In this document: in pieces, positions 32,336 to 41,359 of the stretch
Position numbering within the stretch: position 1 is the stretch's first letter
Layout: each line of letters starts with the position of its first letter
Source of the DNA: an uncultured Dysosmobacter sp.
GTDB taxonomy: Bacteria; Bacillota; Clostridia; Oscillospirales; Oscillospiraceae
Length of the DNA: 64,000 nucleotides
NCBI GenBank assembly: GCA_947625655.1
Contig: CANQPD010000005.1
Span: 1 to 64,000 of the forward strand
Direction of reading: 5' to 3'
Notes under the pieces: model-generated
The model's input: the letters and a program-made list of their open reading frames with translations, nothing else
Databases searched by the model: none
Told to the model about the DNA's origin: nothing
Translations under genes and position numbers: made by a program

Positions 32336-33970
32336 CTAAAAGTAACCTTGAAAGCCAAGCATAAGGCACATAGCGATGCGCTGGATCAGGTATTGCACAC
32401 ATGGAATTGCAACGCTGTTGCCCAAAGCCTTATATCGATTGGAGTCCGACACATTTGGCATATTTGTCCAACCATCCGGGTACCCTTGTAGCCGTTCACA
32501 TTCCATTGGTGTGAGTCTGCGAATGAGGTATACCATTCCCATCTTTTCAGGTAACTGTTGATAAATTAGATCTGTAGCATCCTTGTACTGGCGCGCACTT
32601 TGGGTCCCTACAACTGTATCGCTCTGAAATAGATCGACACGCTGCCGGCGAAACACTGCATGATGATCTGTTGCGGTCAAAGTATAGGATAGATTCGGCT
32701 GATATCCAATTCCGTTCCCACCATTATGTGGCTGCCGGTCAATTGCATTTCCTGTAATACAATAGGTTTCCTCTGGTGCTGCAACCAAAGGCAAATTGTT
32801 TCCACCAGTTCCAGCCCTTGCAGAGAGAGTAGGTGACACAGCATGTGGACCAGTATAGCGGGCATCAATTCCGTGGTTCTCGTATAGGGCCGGTTCTTGG
32901 GGCGAATCAACTACCAAAGGATGATTCAGTAAGCTTGCGGATAAAGTTGGTGAACATTCGACTGGCCCACGGTATCTGGTGTCCTGACCGTGGGCATCAA
33001 GAACCAAAGGTTCATGTCCGTGTGTCTGAGCGCGGAGCGTTCCTGTCATCTCTTTGGTTACATCCATTACACGGCCGCCCTGATCATTCAGGCAGAAAAC
33101 AGTCGGCATACAATTTCCGCTGGCACTACCTTTGAGAGTAGGAGCGATTTCTTCATCGTAGCCAATGCTACCGGCAGTTGCACCAGCCCCTGCGGAGAAT
33201 CCTGCGGCAAAAATGCATGGGTATCCCTGACCCGCTTGACCTCCACCAGTGCTTAAAGTGGTGTGTTTTTCTTCTGTAATAAAGCAATCGCCGCTTCCTT
33301 TTGTTATTAGACCCGATACATGAAGGCTTTCCGGGGGCAATAGGGCGAGGTCGCCGTCTATGCCGCAAGTAAATCTGGCCTCATCCTGCTGGTTATTCAC
33401 AAAAGGAGTTGGATCCAGAACACCATTTCGTCCTGTGGACATACCGCAGTTGGTTCCAAGTGTGGCAGACACGTCGCCCGTTAAATCACCGTTATAACCA
33501 TCGACCCCAGTAATTTCTCCGTGCAGATTAGTGTCCTCCGGTTTTTGTATCCCAGCCTGAACCCTCAGTGCTGCCGCAAGTGCTGTCGGAAGATCTTTCC
33601 CCCTCTCCTCCGCTCGCCGCAGGATACCCATGCAAGCTGTCGGGGATAAATAATATTTGGATGGGACTGTATCCTGCAAAATCTGTGATAAGGAAGATTC
33701 GACGACGGCGCTGGGGCACTCCGAGGTATTGAGCGTCCCAAGTGACCCAAGCCACACAGGATCGTACTCCCAGCACGGCCCCAGCATATTCCCAGCGCCC
33801 GGTCTCAGGTCTAATAACATGAAGGTATGGTTCTTCAACTTGGAGGAACGATTGGAGGACGATTTTGAAGTCTTCTCCGTTTGCGCTGGAGAATGCTCCT
33901 GGGACATTTTCCCACACTCCATATCTTGGCCGAACAAGGATATCTGGCCGTCCTCTTTGCTTATCTGCAT
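32336..33970 (-). CDS. C5-cytosine methyltransferase second subunit (repeat region plus motif IX/X C-terminus)
   Basis: YLIRRLTPMECERLQGYPDGWTNMPNVSDSNRYKALGNSVAIPCVQYL. Repeats DTRYRGPVECSPTLSASLLNHPLVV and DARYTGPHAVSPTLSARAGTGGNNLPLVA. AAGGAG ribosome-binding site 7 nt before ATG at 33970. Confidence 0.8.
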   Translation of the reverse strand: MQISKEDGQISLFGQDMECGKMSQEHSPAQTEKTSKSSSNRSSKLKNHTFMLLDLRPGAGNMLGPCWEYDPVWLGSLGTLNTSECPSAVVESSLSQILQDTVPSKYYLSPTACMGILRRAEERGKDLPTALAAALRVQAGIQKPEDTNLHGEITGVDGYNGDLTGDVSATLGTNCGMSTGRNGVLDPTPFVNNQQDEARFTCGIDGDLALLPPESLHVSGLITKGSGDCFITEEKHTTLSTGGGQAGQGYPCIFAAGFSAGAGATAGSIGYDEEIAPTLKGSASGNCMPTVFCLNDQGGRVMDVTKEMTGTLRAQTHGHEPLVLDAHGQDTRYRGPVECSPTLSASLLNHPLVVDSPQEPALYENHGIDARYTGPHAVSPTLSARAGTGGNNLPLVAAPEETYCITGNAIDRQPHNGGNGIGYQPNLSYTLTATDHHAVFRRQRVDLFQSDTVVGTQSARQYKDATDLIYQQLPEKMGMVYLIRRLTPMECERLQGYPDGWTNMPNVSDSNRYKALGNSVAIPCVQYLIQRIAMCLMLGFQGYF

Positions 33971-34301
33971 ATCTCATCTCCTTAATGATGCGGATCTGTT
34001 CCAAAAATAGGCCGGAGCGTTCACCGGCTAACCCGGCACGCGCTCCGGCCACGGAAAGATCCTGACACGGAGAGCCACCGCAGATGATATCCACCGGCGG
34101 TAACTCTGCTCCATCTAATTGTGTGATGTCTCCGACATGAACCATGTTGGGAAATCTTTTTTGTGTTACTGAGATTGGAAACGCCTCAATTTCGCTGGCC
34201 CACAGCGGTTCTATACCACTGCGAACAGCAGCCAAAGGGAATCCACCAATTCCATCAAAGAGGCTGCCCATCGTCAGGACACGGCCTGTGGGTGCTATCA
34301 T
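33528..34301 (-). CDS. C5-cytosine methyltransferase catalytic subunit (motifs I-VIII)
   Basis: MGSLFDGIGGFPLAAVRSG, VDIICGGSPCQDLSVAGARAGL, YGVWENVPGAFSS, YLGVPQRRRRIFLITDF. Lacks motif X. Confidence 0.88.
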   Translation of the reverse strand: MIAPTGRVLTMGSLFDGIGGFPLAAVRSGIEPLWASEIEAFPISVTQKRFPNMVHVGDITQLDGAELPPVDIICGGSPCQDLSVAGARAGLAGERSGLFLEQIRIIKEMRYADKQRGRPDILVRPRYGVWENVPGAFSSANGEDFKIVLQSFLQVEEPYLHVIRPETGRWEYAGAVLGVRSCVAWVTWDAQYLGVPQRRRRIFLITDFAGYSPIQILFIPDSLHGYPAASGGEGERSSDSTCGSTEGSGWDTKTGGH

Positions 34302-35597: not shown

Positions 35598-35770
35598 GTT
35601 AATCACCCTTTCTTAAAAAATATCGAGCTGGAACCGGTGTGCCTTTCCTCCGAGCTGAAACCAGCTGAAAGGCCTTTGAACCTTTTGTTCTCCTCTGCTC
35701 ATAGGTAGTTCCTCCTCAAAGTGGGAGGGCCGCCCAATTGGGCGACCCTCCTGGATGTAATGAAATTGGA

Positions 35771-38700
35771 TCAATATCCCGTTCTGGGAAGGGGCTCGGA
35801 AGGCTTATAAACCTTGGTTACCCAACGGCTGGTTGCCATAATCCACTGTCCGTCATAGACACCGCCCACATCTGCCTGGTTAACGAACTGGGTGCCACCA
35901 GTGAGCCAAGAGACTACATTGCAATAGACTCTCGGTGCCTCCACCTGTCGGAAATTGGAGGGCACCACGCCGAAGGACACCATAAACTGGGTCACATACT
36001 CGTTGGAAGCCAAACCAAGTGCTGCAGGCGAGGCATCCAGCGTATAGTTCTGCATGGTGCTCAGGTTGTCGTACATGGTGCGCCATGTACCGCCGCTCAG
36101 GTTGGTCTGGTAGACCACCTTGTAATTTCCAGGCACATTGTAGGTGCCGGTGATGATCTTATCCAGCCGTACCGCCTGGGTAGGCAGGGTATCCCTCCAG
36201 TAGAAGGAGGTGAGGCTGGTGGTGGAGTTGTTGCCGATGCCAGAAAAGTCATAGCGAATCTGCTGCCCAGGCATGACCTCCACATATCCGGTCTTTTTAA
36301 TGCTGACGTTGGTATAGAGGCTCTTATTTGTCATGGCCGTCTTAACGATCTGACCGGCAAATTCGATCTCCGCCTCAATGGGAGTCTTGTCCAGGCCATA
36401 GAACTCGGCTGCCTGGGCTTCCACAACTTTGTACCGGCCCAGGGGCAGCGGCTTAGAGACTGCCACGCCATTTTTGTCCGTCTTGATGGTATCCACCAGC
36501 TTGCCGGTCCGATAGTTGTAGATCTCGAAGACGGTGTTGGGAATGGGGGTTCCGGCAGGCCAGCCGTTCATCGAGTTATAATCTGCCGAAGTTTTGGTAA
36601 TCTGGATCTGTCCGGTAATGGGAGTGTTTTCCCGCTCAACCTCGGTGGTCTCTCCAGACTTCACATAGACGGTTTTCTTCTGGGTGTCCGGGACATACCC
36701 CTCATTTTCCAACTCGCGCAGGTAGTAACGGCCTGCCTCCAGATCTTCGATGTAGACATAGCCCCGGTCATCACTGGTGTACTGACCGATGGGGGTGTTG
36801 CTGCTGTCATAGAGGAGGAAGGTCACCCCGTAGATCCCTTCGCCGGTAGTGCTGTCCGTCTTATGGATCAGGATACCGGACACGGCCTTATTGGTAATCT
36901 TGAGGGGTTCTGTCTTTCCGTTCTCCACCTCAAAGTAGTAGGGGGTGCTGTCCAGCTTGAAGCCATCCGCTGCCTCGACCTCCACCGCATAATAGGCACC
37001 GTCTTCCAGGGAAACGAAGACTCGACCGTTTTTGTCCGTGGTGACGGTATCAATCAGTTCGTCATCTACCTTACGGATCTCGAATGTGGTGCCAGGAATG
37101 CGCTCGGTCTGATCAGCTTCGTTGACCTTGATAATCTCAACCCCTCCGATGGGATCGTTATAAAAAGTCAAGGTCTGCGTATCTGCCGGGTTTACCACCA
37201 CGGTCTGGGACTGAGTGGCCGGATCAATGGTGTAGCCATCAATGGTTTTCGTTTCCTTTACCACGATCGTGCCGGTCACACCACTGATTCGAATCTCACC
37301 ATTGGCATCTGTGGTATAAAGGCCCTTGCTGGACAGGTGGCCGTTGTCAGCGTCCACATAGCCACCATCGGCGTAGGTCAGCTCAAATTCCACACCAGCC
37401 AGAGGCTTTTTAGTCACGGAATCGAGCTTTCGAATGACCAGAGTGCCCTTCGCCGCATTATAGAAGCGCAAGGTCTGTACCTCACCGGCCTTAATCTCAA
37501 TGGACTTGGGAGAAGTGTCCAGCACATAGCCCTCCACTGTTTTGACCTCTCTGGCGGTCACCGTGGTGCCGGGCTCCAAATCATCAATAACAATGCGGCC
37601 ATTCTCATCGGTAATGTACTCTCCATTGCTGGAGCCAACGACCGCGCCGGAACTATCTGTGACCAAGAAAGTCACGCCCGCCAGCGGCGTTGTGGTACCC
37701 TCGATATATTTTTCGATGACCAATGTGGTACTGGGCGTGTTGGTGAAGTAGAGCGTCTGCGTATCATTGGGGTTGACCTGGACGGTCTGGGTCTTCTTTG
37801 CGGGATCAATGCTGTATCCCGGAATGGTTGCGGTTTCGGTCACTACCAGGGTGCCCACTACACCGTCAATCTGGATCTTTCCGTCCTTATCGGTAAAGTA
37901 AAGACCGTTGCTGGAGATGTAGCCGTTCTCGTCCGGCACGTACTCACCGGTAGATGTGGTCACCTTAAATGTAACTCCCTCGAGAGGTTTACCAGTAAGA
38001 GAGTCCCGCTTATCGATGATCAAACTTCCGGCCTTAGAGTTCTTGATGACCACTGTCTGTGTATCGCCGCTCTCGCCGATCACCACATTGGTGGTGGGCT
38101 GATCGATCACATACCCAGACGGAGCCTTCAGTTCAGAGATTACATAGGCACCTGGGGCCAGATTCGTGATGTGAATTTCACCATTGGAGTCCGTGGTGAA
38201 GATGCCATTCTGGGTGAGAGTGGAATCTCCAATGACACCATCTAGCCCAACTTCACAGCCTGCTGCCGTAGTCACTCGGAATTCAGCACCAGGAAGAGGT
38301 TTGTCGGTGGCGCTATCGCGTTTCTGAATAATGAGCTCGCCCTTGGGCTGGTTCTTGAAGGTAAGCGAAACAGTTCGCCCCTCCTTGATCTGGATGGTCT
38401 GGGACTGGGTGTCAATCAGGAAACCTGCCGGAGCCTTCGTTTCAGTGACGACCACGCTTTTACCGGGAGCCAAGCCCTCGATGCGGATCTCACCGTTCTC
38501 GTCCGTGCGGTAGATTCCATTATTGTCCCCGATCAAAGTGCCATCGGCATACATGTCCTTAAACTCGGCGTCCTGGAGAGTCACGCTGGGATTGACAGAA
38601 CAAACCTTGCGAATCAGCAGGTTGCCATCCGGCATATTCTTAAACCGGACGGTGACAACCGACTGTTCTCCGCTGTCGGCCAGATAGACGGTTTCCGAAG

Positions 38701-41359
38701 ACTGGATGATACTATAGCCGTCCGCAGGGTCCACTTCCTCCAGAATATAGGTGCCGGGTTTGAGGCTGGTCCAAATAGCGGTGCCGTTTTTCCCGGTCAC
38801 CTTCTGGCCAATAATCGTTCCACCGGTGCCAGATGTCCCGCCAAGGTAACGCAGCTGGAACGTGCAGCCCGGAAGGGCCTCACCAGTGACGCTGTCGTAT
38901 TTCTCGACGATGATGGCGTTAAGGGGAGTATTCTGGAAGGTAACGGTTTTCTTTTCTCCGCCATGGAGAATGATCTTCTGAGTTGTGGGCTCTACCATCT
39001 GGAACCCAGGAGCAGGCTCTACCTCAGTGATGGTGTATTCGCCGGGATACAGCCGCTTTCCCTGCTCGTGAAGTCGGATCTCGCCGTTAGAATCCGTCAG
39101 GAACTCGCCAAAATCAATGGTGGCAGGTGCGTCAGCGGCCTCACCATTGCTGGTATAGGTTACATGGAATCGCGCTGCCTCCACGGGGGCACCGGCAACG
39201 CTATCCTCCTTGTAGATGGTGAGTTCAGGGCTTTTGCTGTTCTTGAAAACAAGCTTCTTTTCGTCCCCTGCATTCAGAGAGATCGTCTGGACCCGATCTG
39301 CGTCTTTATCGGGGAGGAAGTAGGGGGCCGGTACGGACAATTCAGTGACACGGTAAGTACCAGGTGCCACACGGAGGGTAACAGTACCATCCTGGCCGGT
39401 GGTGACATCATTCTGGTAATCACCATCAATGGCTTCAATCCGGAAGACGGTGCCGGAAATGGGGGTGGTGGAGTCTGCAGCATCGACTTTGGCGATGGTG
39501 AGCTGGGGCTGCTTCAAGTTATCAAAGATCAGCTGCTTCTCATCGCCGGGACCCAGCCAGATCGTCTGGGTGGGTTCTGCAGCCACCACATAGGGGTCAG
39601 GTACGGAGATTTCAGTCACTTCATAGCTGTCTACGGGAAGGCCAGTCAAAGTGGCCGTGCCGTCTTCACCAGTAGTAACATCCGTGTGGTAGCCGTGATG
39701 AATGCCCTTTACTTCAAAGACGGCTCCGGGAACAACCTGTCCAGTCTGGCCATCTCGCTTAAGGATGGTAAGGGTAGGAAGTTCTTCATCTACTGCGGAG
39801 ACCGAAATCGTGCCGCCACCGTCCACATCTTCCTGATCCACATGGACGGTAACAGGCTCTTCGAGTCGGGCATAGGGAGCCGGGACATAGACCTCAACAA
39901 AAGCGTAGAGGCCCTCAGTGATATTGGTAACGGTAATAATTCCAGAGGCATCGGTTTTCTCTGTGGCAATGATCTGCCCATCTTTCAGGACATTGAATAC
40001 TGCGCCTTCGATGGGCTGGTCGGAGTCGTTTACCTTCAAAAGTTCGAGCTTTACTTTTGCGTCGTTCTCGAACACAAGGTCAACATCGCTCTTGCCGTCC
40101 CAATAGAACTCCTGCCGGACCTTATCAGGATCTTTGCTGATGGTGTACCCGTTCGGAGGGGTGACTTCAGTGGCTACATAAGAGCCGATGGGCATCGTAT
40201 CCCAGGGTACATCCTGCAGATATCCTCCGACACCAGTGGTGTAGGTGCCGGTAAAGCTGTTATCGACACCCTCGATCTTAATCACAGCACCAGCCAGCCC
40301 CTTGCTGGGATCGTCGGAATCCACTTTGCGGATGCTGCCCTCACTGGTGATGACAGGAGTATCAGTAAAGGTAACTGTGACGGTGGTACCGCTCTCGTTG
40401 GGGAGAACAACATACTGAGGTCCTGCGTTATCAATTTCGTACCCCTCCGGAGGGGCCATTTCAGTTACGGAATAAGTGCCTGCATCCAAAGACGACAGCG
40501 TATAGGTTCCATCGCTCCCGGTGACAAACTCCTTGGAATAGGTGCCATTGGCGGACTGGATGAGGAACCGAGCACCGGAAAGGCCCTTGCTGGGGTTGGT
40601 AGAGTCTACCTTCTTTACGGTAAGCTCGTACTGCTCGCGGGTGATGGTGAGTTCGCCAACGAATACAGCCTGAACATCATTGGCGGGGTGGTAATTGGAG
40701 CCGGGACCAGCATATTTGTATTCATATACTGCGCAATCACCCCAAACACCCTCTGCACCGAGGTCGAGAGTGTACTGGGCCCTGTCGCGGAAAGACCAGC
40801 CATCCAGTTCCTCATCAATGCTGGTGTAGTTGGTGTGTTTGAGGTTGTTGAAAACATACATCAATTCTTCCGCGCAGGCGACCACAGGATCAGAGAGCAG
40901 ACCGGCCTTATACCGCCAAACTACTGCCTGCACCCATGCATTCATAGTCCAGGTATAGTCGGAGCCCCATACTTCATCCAGGCCCAGTGCTTGTGCCCGG
41001 TCAGTGAAAATACCTTTGGTATGACAATAGAAATATGCCATCATAATTTTCACTGTGGAGTCGTTGATTTCTTTGGGGCTGTTCCACTCATGACCTTCCA
41101 AAGACCAGCCCATGCCTTTGCCTTTTTCGGAGCAAAAGCCCATGACGCTGTCGCCGTTGAAATCAAACTGCATCTGGTGCATATAGCAAATCCCTAATGC
41201 GGGAGAGTCATAGTGGACCCCGTTGTAGGTGCAGTCCTCCAACTTAATGGTGTTGGGGCTGGCAGCCAGCGCACTGGCAGGGAACAGGCCCACAATACAC
41301 AGAACAGCGAGCAGCAAGGACATCATGCGAATATATACGGAATGCGTTTTCATCTTCAT
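35771..41359 (-). CDS. Giant SpaA/CnaB-repeat surface adhesin with an N-terminal thioester-like domain and C-terminal LPRTGY
   Basis: Signal peptide; FCSEKGKGM...NAWVQAVVWRYKAG (thioester Cys/Gln-like). About 15 tandem CnaB-type units (e.g. LTIAKVDAADSTTPISGTVFRIEAIDG...YRVTELSVPAPY). Ends KPSEPLPRTGY-stop. Confidence 0.92.
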   Translation of the reverse strand: MKMKTHSVYIRMMSLLLAVLCIVGLFPASALAASPNTIKLEDCTYNGVHYDSPALGICYMHQMQFDFNGDSVMGFCSEKGKGMGWSLEGHEWNSPKEINDSTVKIMMAYFYCHTKGIFTDRAQALGLDEVWGSDYTWTMNAWVQAVVWRYKAGLLSDPVVACAEELMYVFNNLKHTNYTSIDEELDGWSFRDRAQYTLDLGAEGVWGDCAVYEYKYAGPGSNYHPANDVQAVFVGELTITREQYELTVKKVDSTNPSKGLSGARFLIQSANGTYSKEFVTGSDGTYTLSSLDAGTYSVTEMAPPEGYEIDNAGPQYVVLPNESGTTVTVTFTDTPVITSEGSIRKVDSDDPSKGLAGAVIKIEGVDNSFTGTYTTGVGGYLQDVPWDTMPIGSYVATEVTPPNGYTISKDPDKVRQEFYWDGKSDVDLVFENDAKVKLELLKVNDSDQPIEGAVFNVLKDGQIIATEKTDASGIITVTNITEGLYAFVEVYVPAPYARLEEPVTVHVDQEDVDGGGTISVSAVDEELPTLTILKRDGQTGQVVPGAVFEVKGIHHGYHTDVTTGEDGTATLTGLPVDSYEVTEISVPDPYVVAAEPTQTIWLGPGDEKQLIFDNLKQPQLTIAKVDAADSTTPISGTVFRIEAIDGDYQNDVTTGQDGTVTLRVAPGTYRVTELSVPAPYFLPDKDADRVQTISLNAGDEKKLVFKNSKSPELTIYKEDSVAGAPVEAARFHVTYTSNGEAADAPATIDFGEFLTDSNGEIRLHEQGKRLYPGEYTITEVEPAPGFQMVEPTTQKIILHGGEKKTVTFQNTPLNAIIVEKYDSVTGEALPGCTFQLRYLGGTSGTGGTIIGQKVTGKNGTAIWTSLKPGTYILEEVDPADGYSIIQSSETVYLADSGEQSVVTVRFKNMPDGNLLIRKVCSVNPSVTLQDAEFKDMYADGTLIGDNNGIYRTDENGEIRIEGLAPGKSVVVTETKAPAGFLIDTQSQTIQIKEGRTVSLTFKNQPKGELIIQKRDSATDKPLPGAEFRVTTAAGCEVGLDGVIGDSTLTQNGIFTTDSNGEIHITNLAPGAYVISELKAPSGYVIDQPTTNVVIGESGDTQTVVIKNSKAGSLIIDKRDSLTGKPLEGVTFKVTTSTGEYVPDENGYISSNGLYFTDKDGKIQIDGVVGTLVVTETATIPGYSIDPAKKTQTVQVNPNDTQTLYFTNTPSTTLVIEKYIEGTTTPLAGVTFLVTDSSGAVVGSSNGEYITDENGRIVIDDLEPGTTVTAREVKTVEGYVLDTSPKSIEIKAGEVQTLRFYNAAKGTLVIRKLDSVTKKPLAGVEFELTYADGGYVDADNGHLSSKGLYTTDANGEIRISGVTGTIVVKETKTIDGYTIDPATQSQTVVVNPADTQTLTFYNDPIGGVEIIKVNEADQTERIPGTTFEIRKVDDELIDTVTTDKNGRVFVSLEDGAYYAVEVEAADGFKLDSTPYYFEVENGKTEPLKITNKAVSGILIHKTDSTTGEGIYGVTFLLYDSSNTPIGQYTSDDRGYVYIEDLEAGRYYLRELENEGYVPDTQKKTVYVKSGETTEVERENTPITGQIQITKTSADYNSMNGWPAGTPIPNTVFEIYNYRTGKLVDTIKTDKNGVAVSKPLPLGRYKVVEAQAAEFYGLDKTPIEAEIEFAGQIVKTAMTNKSLYTNVSIKKTGYVEVMPGQQIRYDFSGIGNNSTTSLTSFYWRDTLPTQAVRLDKIITGTYNVPGNYKVVYQTNLSGGTWRTMYDNLSTMQNYTLDASPAALGLASNEYVTQFMVSFGVVPSNFRQVEAPRVYCNVVSWLTGGTQFVNQADVGGVYDGQWIMATSRWVTKVYKPSEPLPRTGY

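Follow-up and report, generated by a model that had tools for sequence, protein, structure and literature searches.

The window, that is, the whole 64,000-nucleotide stretch of DNA analysed here, carries on its minus strand two genes that read 443 bp of the same DNA in different frames. We consider it likely that the product of this locus is a two-polypeptide C5-cytosine methyltransferase of a clostridial integrative conjugative element (ICE), that the overlap codes for two proteins, and that the arrangement arose from a nested state of a single-chain methyltransferase gene. The initial annotation had proposed a split enzyme and dual coding from this copy alone. Comparison with relatives added three points: the N-terminus of the second protein (ORF2) is older as a nested gene, the split is derived, and one sub-clade has become de-overlapped. 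The genes and their parts are placed as follows.

33528 to 34301, minus strand: ORF1, N-terminal (catalytic) half of a C5-cytosine methyltransferase with motifs I-VIII, 257 aa (PF00145, phrog_116, phrog_363)
32336 to 33970, minus strand: ORF2, comprising an N-terminal extension, a post-motif-VIII segment, a variable/target-recognition region and motifs IX/X, 544 aa
33528 to 33970, minus strand: dual-coding overlap of ORF1 and ORF2, 443 bp, with ORF2 in the +1 frame relative to ORF1
33978 to 33983, minus strand: AAGGAG ribosome-binding site of ORF2, read from the sequence, inside Lys-Glu codons of ORF1
34059 to 34079, minus strand: motif IV GGSPCQD with the catalytic Cys, ORF1 residues 75-81, intact in the window copy
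33687 to 33722, minus strand: motif VIII GVPQRRRRIFLI in ORF1 and ECPSAVVESSLS in ORF2, read from one DNA stretch
33695 to 33970, minus strand: ORF2 residues 1-92, conserved N-terminal extension (LDLRPGAGNMLG..WE..LGTLNTSECP)
33587 to 33694, minus strand: ORF2 residues 93-128, nested core SLSQILQDTVPSKYYLSPTACMGILRRAEERGKDLP, putative counterpart of the in-frame post-motif-VIII segment of other C5-methyltransferases
32544 to 33523, minus strand: ORF2 variable region with repeated '..TL.A....G..PLV' modules, inferred target-recognition array
32402 to 32527, minus strand: ORF2 motifs IX/X (LIRRLTPMECERLQGYPDG..RYKALGNSVAIP), with C-terminal matches to PF00145 and TIGR00675

Sequence and profile matches confirmed what the initial annotation had said of this layout, namely the positions and overlap of the two ORFs, the presence in ORF1 of motifs I, IV, VI and VIII without motif X, the motif IX/X C-terminus of ORF2, and an AAGGAG of ORF2's own (33983-33978), which lies 7 nt before its ATG. 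The motifs of ORF1 read GSLFDGIGG (I), PCQD (IV), ENVPG (VI) and GVPQRRRRIF (VIII), and the full ordered set of C5-methyltransferase motifs I, IV (PCQ), VI (ENV), VIII (QxRxR), IX and X is present, divided between ORF1 and ORF2. Pfam PF00145 (DNA_methylase) matched ORF1 only over profile positions 2-159 of 324 (E 9.9e-34) and ORF2 only over positions 253-322 (E 2.3e-10), each half being above the Pfam cut-off. For TIGR00675, ORF1 scored 100.3 against a cut-off of 100.65 bits, and ORF2 fell below the cut-off. The ATG of ORF1 overlaps (ATGA) the end of the upstream TrbL_5 (TrbL/VirB6-like) gene at 35188-34298. Four stretches of the ORF2 variable region matched phrog_38038, and modules of about 35 residues ('..PTL.A..G.GGNN.PLV') in this region were gained, lost and reordered among relatives (alignment A5). 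We infer that these modules resemble a shuffled array of target-recognition units; the target sequence likewise remains an inference.

A scan of GTDB genomes yielded 34 loci with relatives of ORF2, and wherever both parts were readable, motifs IX/X lay in the nested frame and never in the frame of motif VIII. More loci with motifs IX/X in the nested frame came from an additional Oscillospirales sample, and the split was found in total in about 30 related loci of clostridial genomes. The two-polypeptide layout proposed for the window copy is kept in these loci, with assembly and activity inferred. The window copy might instead be a recently frameshifted pseudogene, in which a single-chain gene has been broken and the overlap is accidental. 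Single-chain relatives do exist (L015 and phage enzymes), and some ICE copies are truncated: in L131 and L132, the latter from Oscillibacter valericigenes Sjm18-20, ORF2 ends before motifs IX/X, and these are probably dead copies. However, about 30 loci share this split, and both of its parts are under purifying selection; this conservation refutes a lone frameshift or pseudogene, to which we give hardly any credence.

In a tree of motifs I-VIII, 29 split rows and one single-chain row (L015) made up a starred set of 30, which sits within a broad range of single-chain enzymes, and one or two changes on the tree explain the split. The de-overlapped rows formed one starred clade inside this set. 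The order of events was read from this quick tree without bootstraps, and as far as these sequences indicate, the split state is derived from the nested-ORF state of single-chain methyltransferases. At locus L209, in a genome of another genus (G607), the matched part was 100% identical to ORF2 of the window, which suggests that the element was transferred recently.

Using our own script, which follows the idea of OLGenie, we sorted substitutions in the overlap according to what each does to the two frames. Over 37 independent pairs, dNN/dSN of ORF1 was 0.27 (0.22-0.31) and dNN/dNS of the nested frame was 0.35 (0.29-0.42). A control stretch upstream of the nested ORF gave 0.62 (0.51-0.73) for the corresponding fake frame and 0.08 for ORF1. 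Both frames are under purifying selection across the 443-bp overlap, which meets the criterion for an overlapping gene pair and bears out the earlier suggestion of a genuinely dual-coding stretch. For the nested core the ratio was 0.25 in phages and 0.30 in ICE loci against controls of 0.64 and 0.44, and for the N-terminal half of the nested ORF it was 0.65 and 0.51; the evidence that this ratio gives for selection on the frame is therefore strongest for the core, since the N-terminal half differs little from its own controls. Past motif VIII, the rate of substitutions that are synonymous in ORF1 and nonsynonymous in the nested frame (SN) was 0.09-0.18 against 0.36-0.58 for the reverse class (NS), and the nested frame is the constrained one there. 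The N-terminus of ORF2, described in the initial annotation as looking like conserved protein, was indeed kept in alignments of 53-68 rows and in the de-overlapped loci. Of 105 loci, 104 had no stop in the alternative frame from ENV to the end of the core, where shuffling of synonymous codons predicted 15.9, and 61 of 103 loci had an in-frame ATG with a Shine-Dalgarno match of at least 5 bases, compared with 11.4 predicted by such shuffling. These data demonstrate that the nested open frame and its start signal are more than chance. That both products are made is inferred only from the conserved Shine-Dalgarno sequence and ATG, without expression data.

The de-overlapped sub-clade provides a natural experiment. 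In its members (L067, L102, L104, L107, L108, L119, L124 and L125), ORF1 stops about 20 codons past motif VIII and is followed by ORF2 with almost no overlap, and ORF2 retains its full N-terminal domain. The synonymous divergence of ORF1 between ENV and motif VIII was 0.36 in the overlapped group versus 0.62 in the separated group; for the upstream part of ORF1 it was 0.54 and 0.55, respectively, and the nonsynonymous divergence of ORF1 was equal in both groups (0.133). The pairs in this comparison were not independent, so no interval is given. Synonymous suppression in ORF1 vanishes once the genes are separated, and residues 1-135 of ORF2 without overlap showed a pN/pS of 0.31, indicating purifying selection.

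Relatives of the ORF2 N-terminus were found in 127 phage records. At more than 70 phage loci, an intact single-chain methyltransferase gene contains the complete nested ORF of 130-190 aa in its +1 frame. This nested state was seen in the phage records that were examined closely and in the majority of 80 IMG/VR loci, with phage hosts including Streptococcus, Mycobacterium, Vibrio and Akkermansia, and none of the annotated phage records inspected had a separate CDS for the nested ORF. In these phage methyltransferases motifs IX/X stay in the ORF1 frame and the nested ORF terminates on its own; its product is a free small protein with a Ser-rich N-terminus that is probably disordered. The nested core also occurs, with its relative frame unchanged, in a second, distant family of clostridial C5-methyltransferases. 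Because distant C5-methyltransferase groups share a related +1 nested ORF, the overlap probably predates the phage family. In such distant groups, a nested ORF of the form CSLSDILE..VPEKYYLS was observed in the +1 frame of L151-L156, L160, L161, L203, L206, L207 and L235-L243. The source genome of the window (G000) also holds weak, diverged nested ORFs of 170 aa at C1:381372-381629 and C12:27119-27409, both inside other single-chain methyltransferase genes. Neither Pfam nor the PDB yielded a relative of useful significance for the nested protein, and PHROGs gave only weak matches (E 0.077). A viral scan with the nested protein of the second family returned nothing, its relatives coming from genomes instead. 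No description of the nested ORF was found in a literature search limited to open papers.

A programmed +1 frameshift near motif VIII could also join ORF1 and ORF2, with the internal start being minor, and such a shift within the overlap would yield motifs I-VIII, the post-VIII segment, the recognition region and motifs IX/X in canonical order on a single chain. However, the N-terminal extension of ORF2, which lies upstream of any useful shift, is conserved with its Shine-Dalgarno sequence and ATG, and the de-overlapped relatives are consecutive genes with separate starts. Moreover, the phage nested ORF terminates itself, so that a single shift would truncate the enzyme. We regard joining by frameshift as very unlikely and favor independent initiation of ORF2.

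The nested core follows the pattern SLSQIL..KYYLS..GIL. Its profile matched the canonical enzyme L200, in frame directly after motif VIII (PLKKVLEKHVPEKYYFSAKAVQGMLK), with 24.9 bits, against 8.6 bits for the best of 6600 shuffled controls. Weaker in-frame matches were obtained for L196, L173 and L166, and the comparison rests on one strong and these few weak canonical sequences. A profile-profile alignment of nested and canonical forms put the core at the expected place without reaching significance. On this evidence, the nested core resembles, and may be the counterpart of, the in-frame post-motif-VIII segment. In our sample the core was nested in 94 phage, 9 second-family and 3 other matches and in frame in 4 enzymes, and no enzyme in the sample had it both ways. 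Because the core is either nested or in frame and never both, the nested product would supply in trans what other enzymes hold in cis; in phages it probably supplies the post-VIII segment in this manner, the need for it in activity being inferred. The AlphaFold model of the nested domain had a mean pLDDT of 64 with confident helices only in the core, as expected of a piece predicted to fold on a partner. The model of full ORF2 (pLDDT 40) was too poor for a fold search.

The nested protein could alternatively be a separate factor, such as a regulator or an anti-restriction or anti-defence protein, that lies within methyltransferase genes by chance. The phage form, being a free small protein with a Ser-rich and probably disordered N-terminus, would suit such a factor, as would the absence of a Pfam match. 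On the other hand, the nested protein was found only with C5-methyltransferases, in the ICE lineage it is joined to the C-terminal part of the methyltransferase, and its core is similar to a segment of the enzyme. We consider a separate factor unlikely.

In the model that we prefer, that of a two-polypeptide enzyme, ORF1 would provide the catalytic domain with motifs I-VIII, and ORF2, initiated independently inside ORF1 in the +1 frame, would bring the N-terminal extension, the post-VIII segment, the target-recognition region and motifs IX/X. These chains would then assemble into one enzyme. Counting against this model are the low confidence of the structure predictions, the motif IV frameshift in eight ICE relatives and the small number of canonical sequences behind the core match. 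The putative origin is a single-chain methyltransferase gene with an ORF of 130-190 aa in its +1 frame, a state that persists in many phages. Along the ICE lineage, the portion of this gene downstream of the nested ORF would have moved into the nested frame and become fused to that ORF, and this fusion of the core to the recognition region and motifs IX/X would restore the canonical order on the second chain. The surroundings are those of a conjugative element, with a MobL relaxase, a TraG/VirB4-like ATPase, an M23 peptidase, TrbL, a sortase and a D12 adenine methyltransferase. A likely role would be to methylate the DNA of the element against host restriction, which is inferred because the gene is placed among transfer genes. 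More broadly, we see even chances that a large share of the C5-methyltransferases of phages and mobile elements are obligate two-protein enzymes, in which an unannotated +1 second protein returns the post-VIII segment in trans; the same even chances apply to separation of the overlap by duplication in one ICE branch, as part of this joint reading.

The closest relatives of ORF1 are the phage single-chain C5-methyltransferases (phrog_116, phrog_363), which share the nested ORF in the same +1 frame but differ in having motifs IX/X in the ORF1 frame and a nested ORF that ends independently. M.EcoHK31I, the nearest precedent, has its beta gene in a different frame within the alpha gene. In that enzyme, motif X and the recognition domain stay on the large chain and only motif IX is on the small chain, whereas here ORF2 carries motif IX, motif X and the recognition region, an arrangement that is not of the M.EcoHK31I type. 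M.EcoHK31I is a natural two-chain C5-methyltransferase (PMC3404938, PMC3439449). In M.AquI, the larger chain carries motifs I-VIII and the smaller chain the distal variable region and motifs IX-X (PMC3404938). The window pair and its approximately 30 relatives divide the motifs in the same way; unlike in M.AquI, the C-terminal chain is the larger one and, besides a conserved N-terminal extension, carries a post-VIII segment of its own. The overlap here comprises 443 bp under double constraint; the overlap length of M.AquI was not compared. For M.SssI, the best complementing C-terminal fragments begin between motif VIII and the recognition domain (PMC3404938). Complementation is thus known for fragments of C5-methyltransferases divided in this region, and by analogy the separate chains of ORF1 and ORF2 could assemble.

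The overlap can be seen both arising and dissolving among these loci, from nested to fused to separated, with the synonymous rate rising after the genes part. To our knowledge, bacteria rarely have long same-strand overlaps in which constraint on both frames has been demonstrated. Should the nested product prove to be a genuine subunit, many phage genomes would gain a gene family that has been overlooked, and assays of phage C5-methyltransferases cloned from recoded synthetic genes could use the wrong form, since recoding removes the second protein hidden in the gene.

In addition, eight ICE relatives (L100, L105, L114, L122, L126, L127, L128 and L129) have a frameshift at motif IV, with one base missing at the identical point behind PCQD (TGCCAGGAC-T), by which ORF1 is broken at the catalytic loop. 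This frameshift requires 4 changes on the tree, and in most copies a GTG follows AGGA. Recoding or re-initiation rather than decay is suggested, because the parts on both flanks are under purifying selection (for example, L105/L127 with dN/dS 0.06 and dS 1.2), and some of the eight copies may be inactive or dependent on recoding. One form of this frameshift was sought in viral contigs and none was found, with a pattern that misses some of the observed forms. Elsewhere in the window, open frames of 835 and 744 aa on the plus strand (35738-38245 and 38963-41197) run antisense to a repetitive protein of 1862 aa (41359-35771). This is probably a surface protein, and the two antisense frames are probably a by-product of its repeats.
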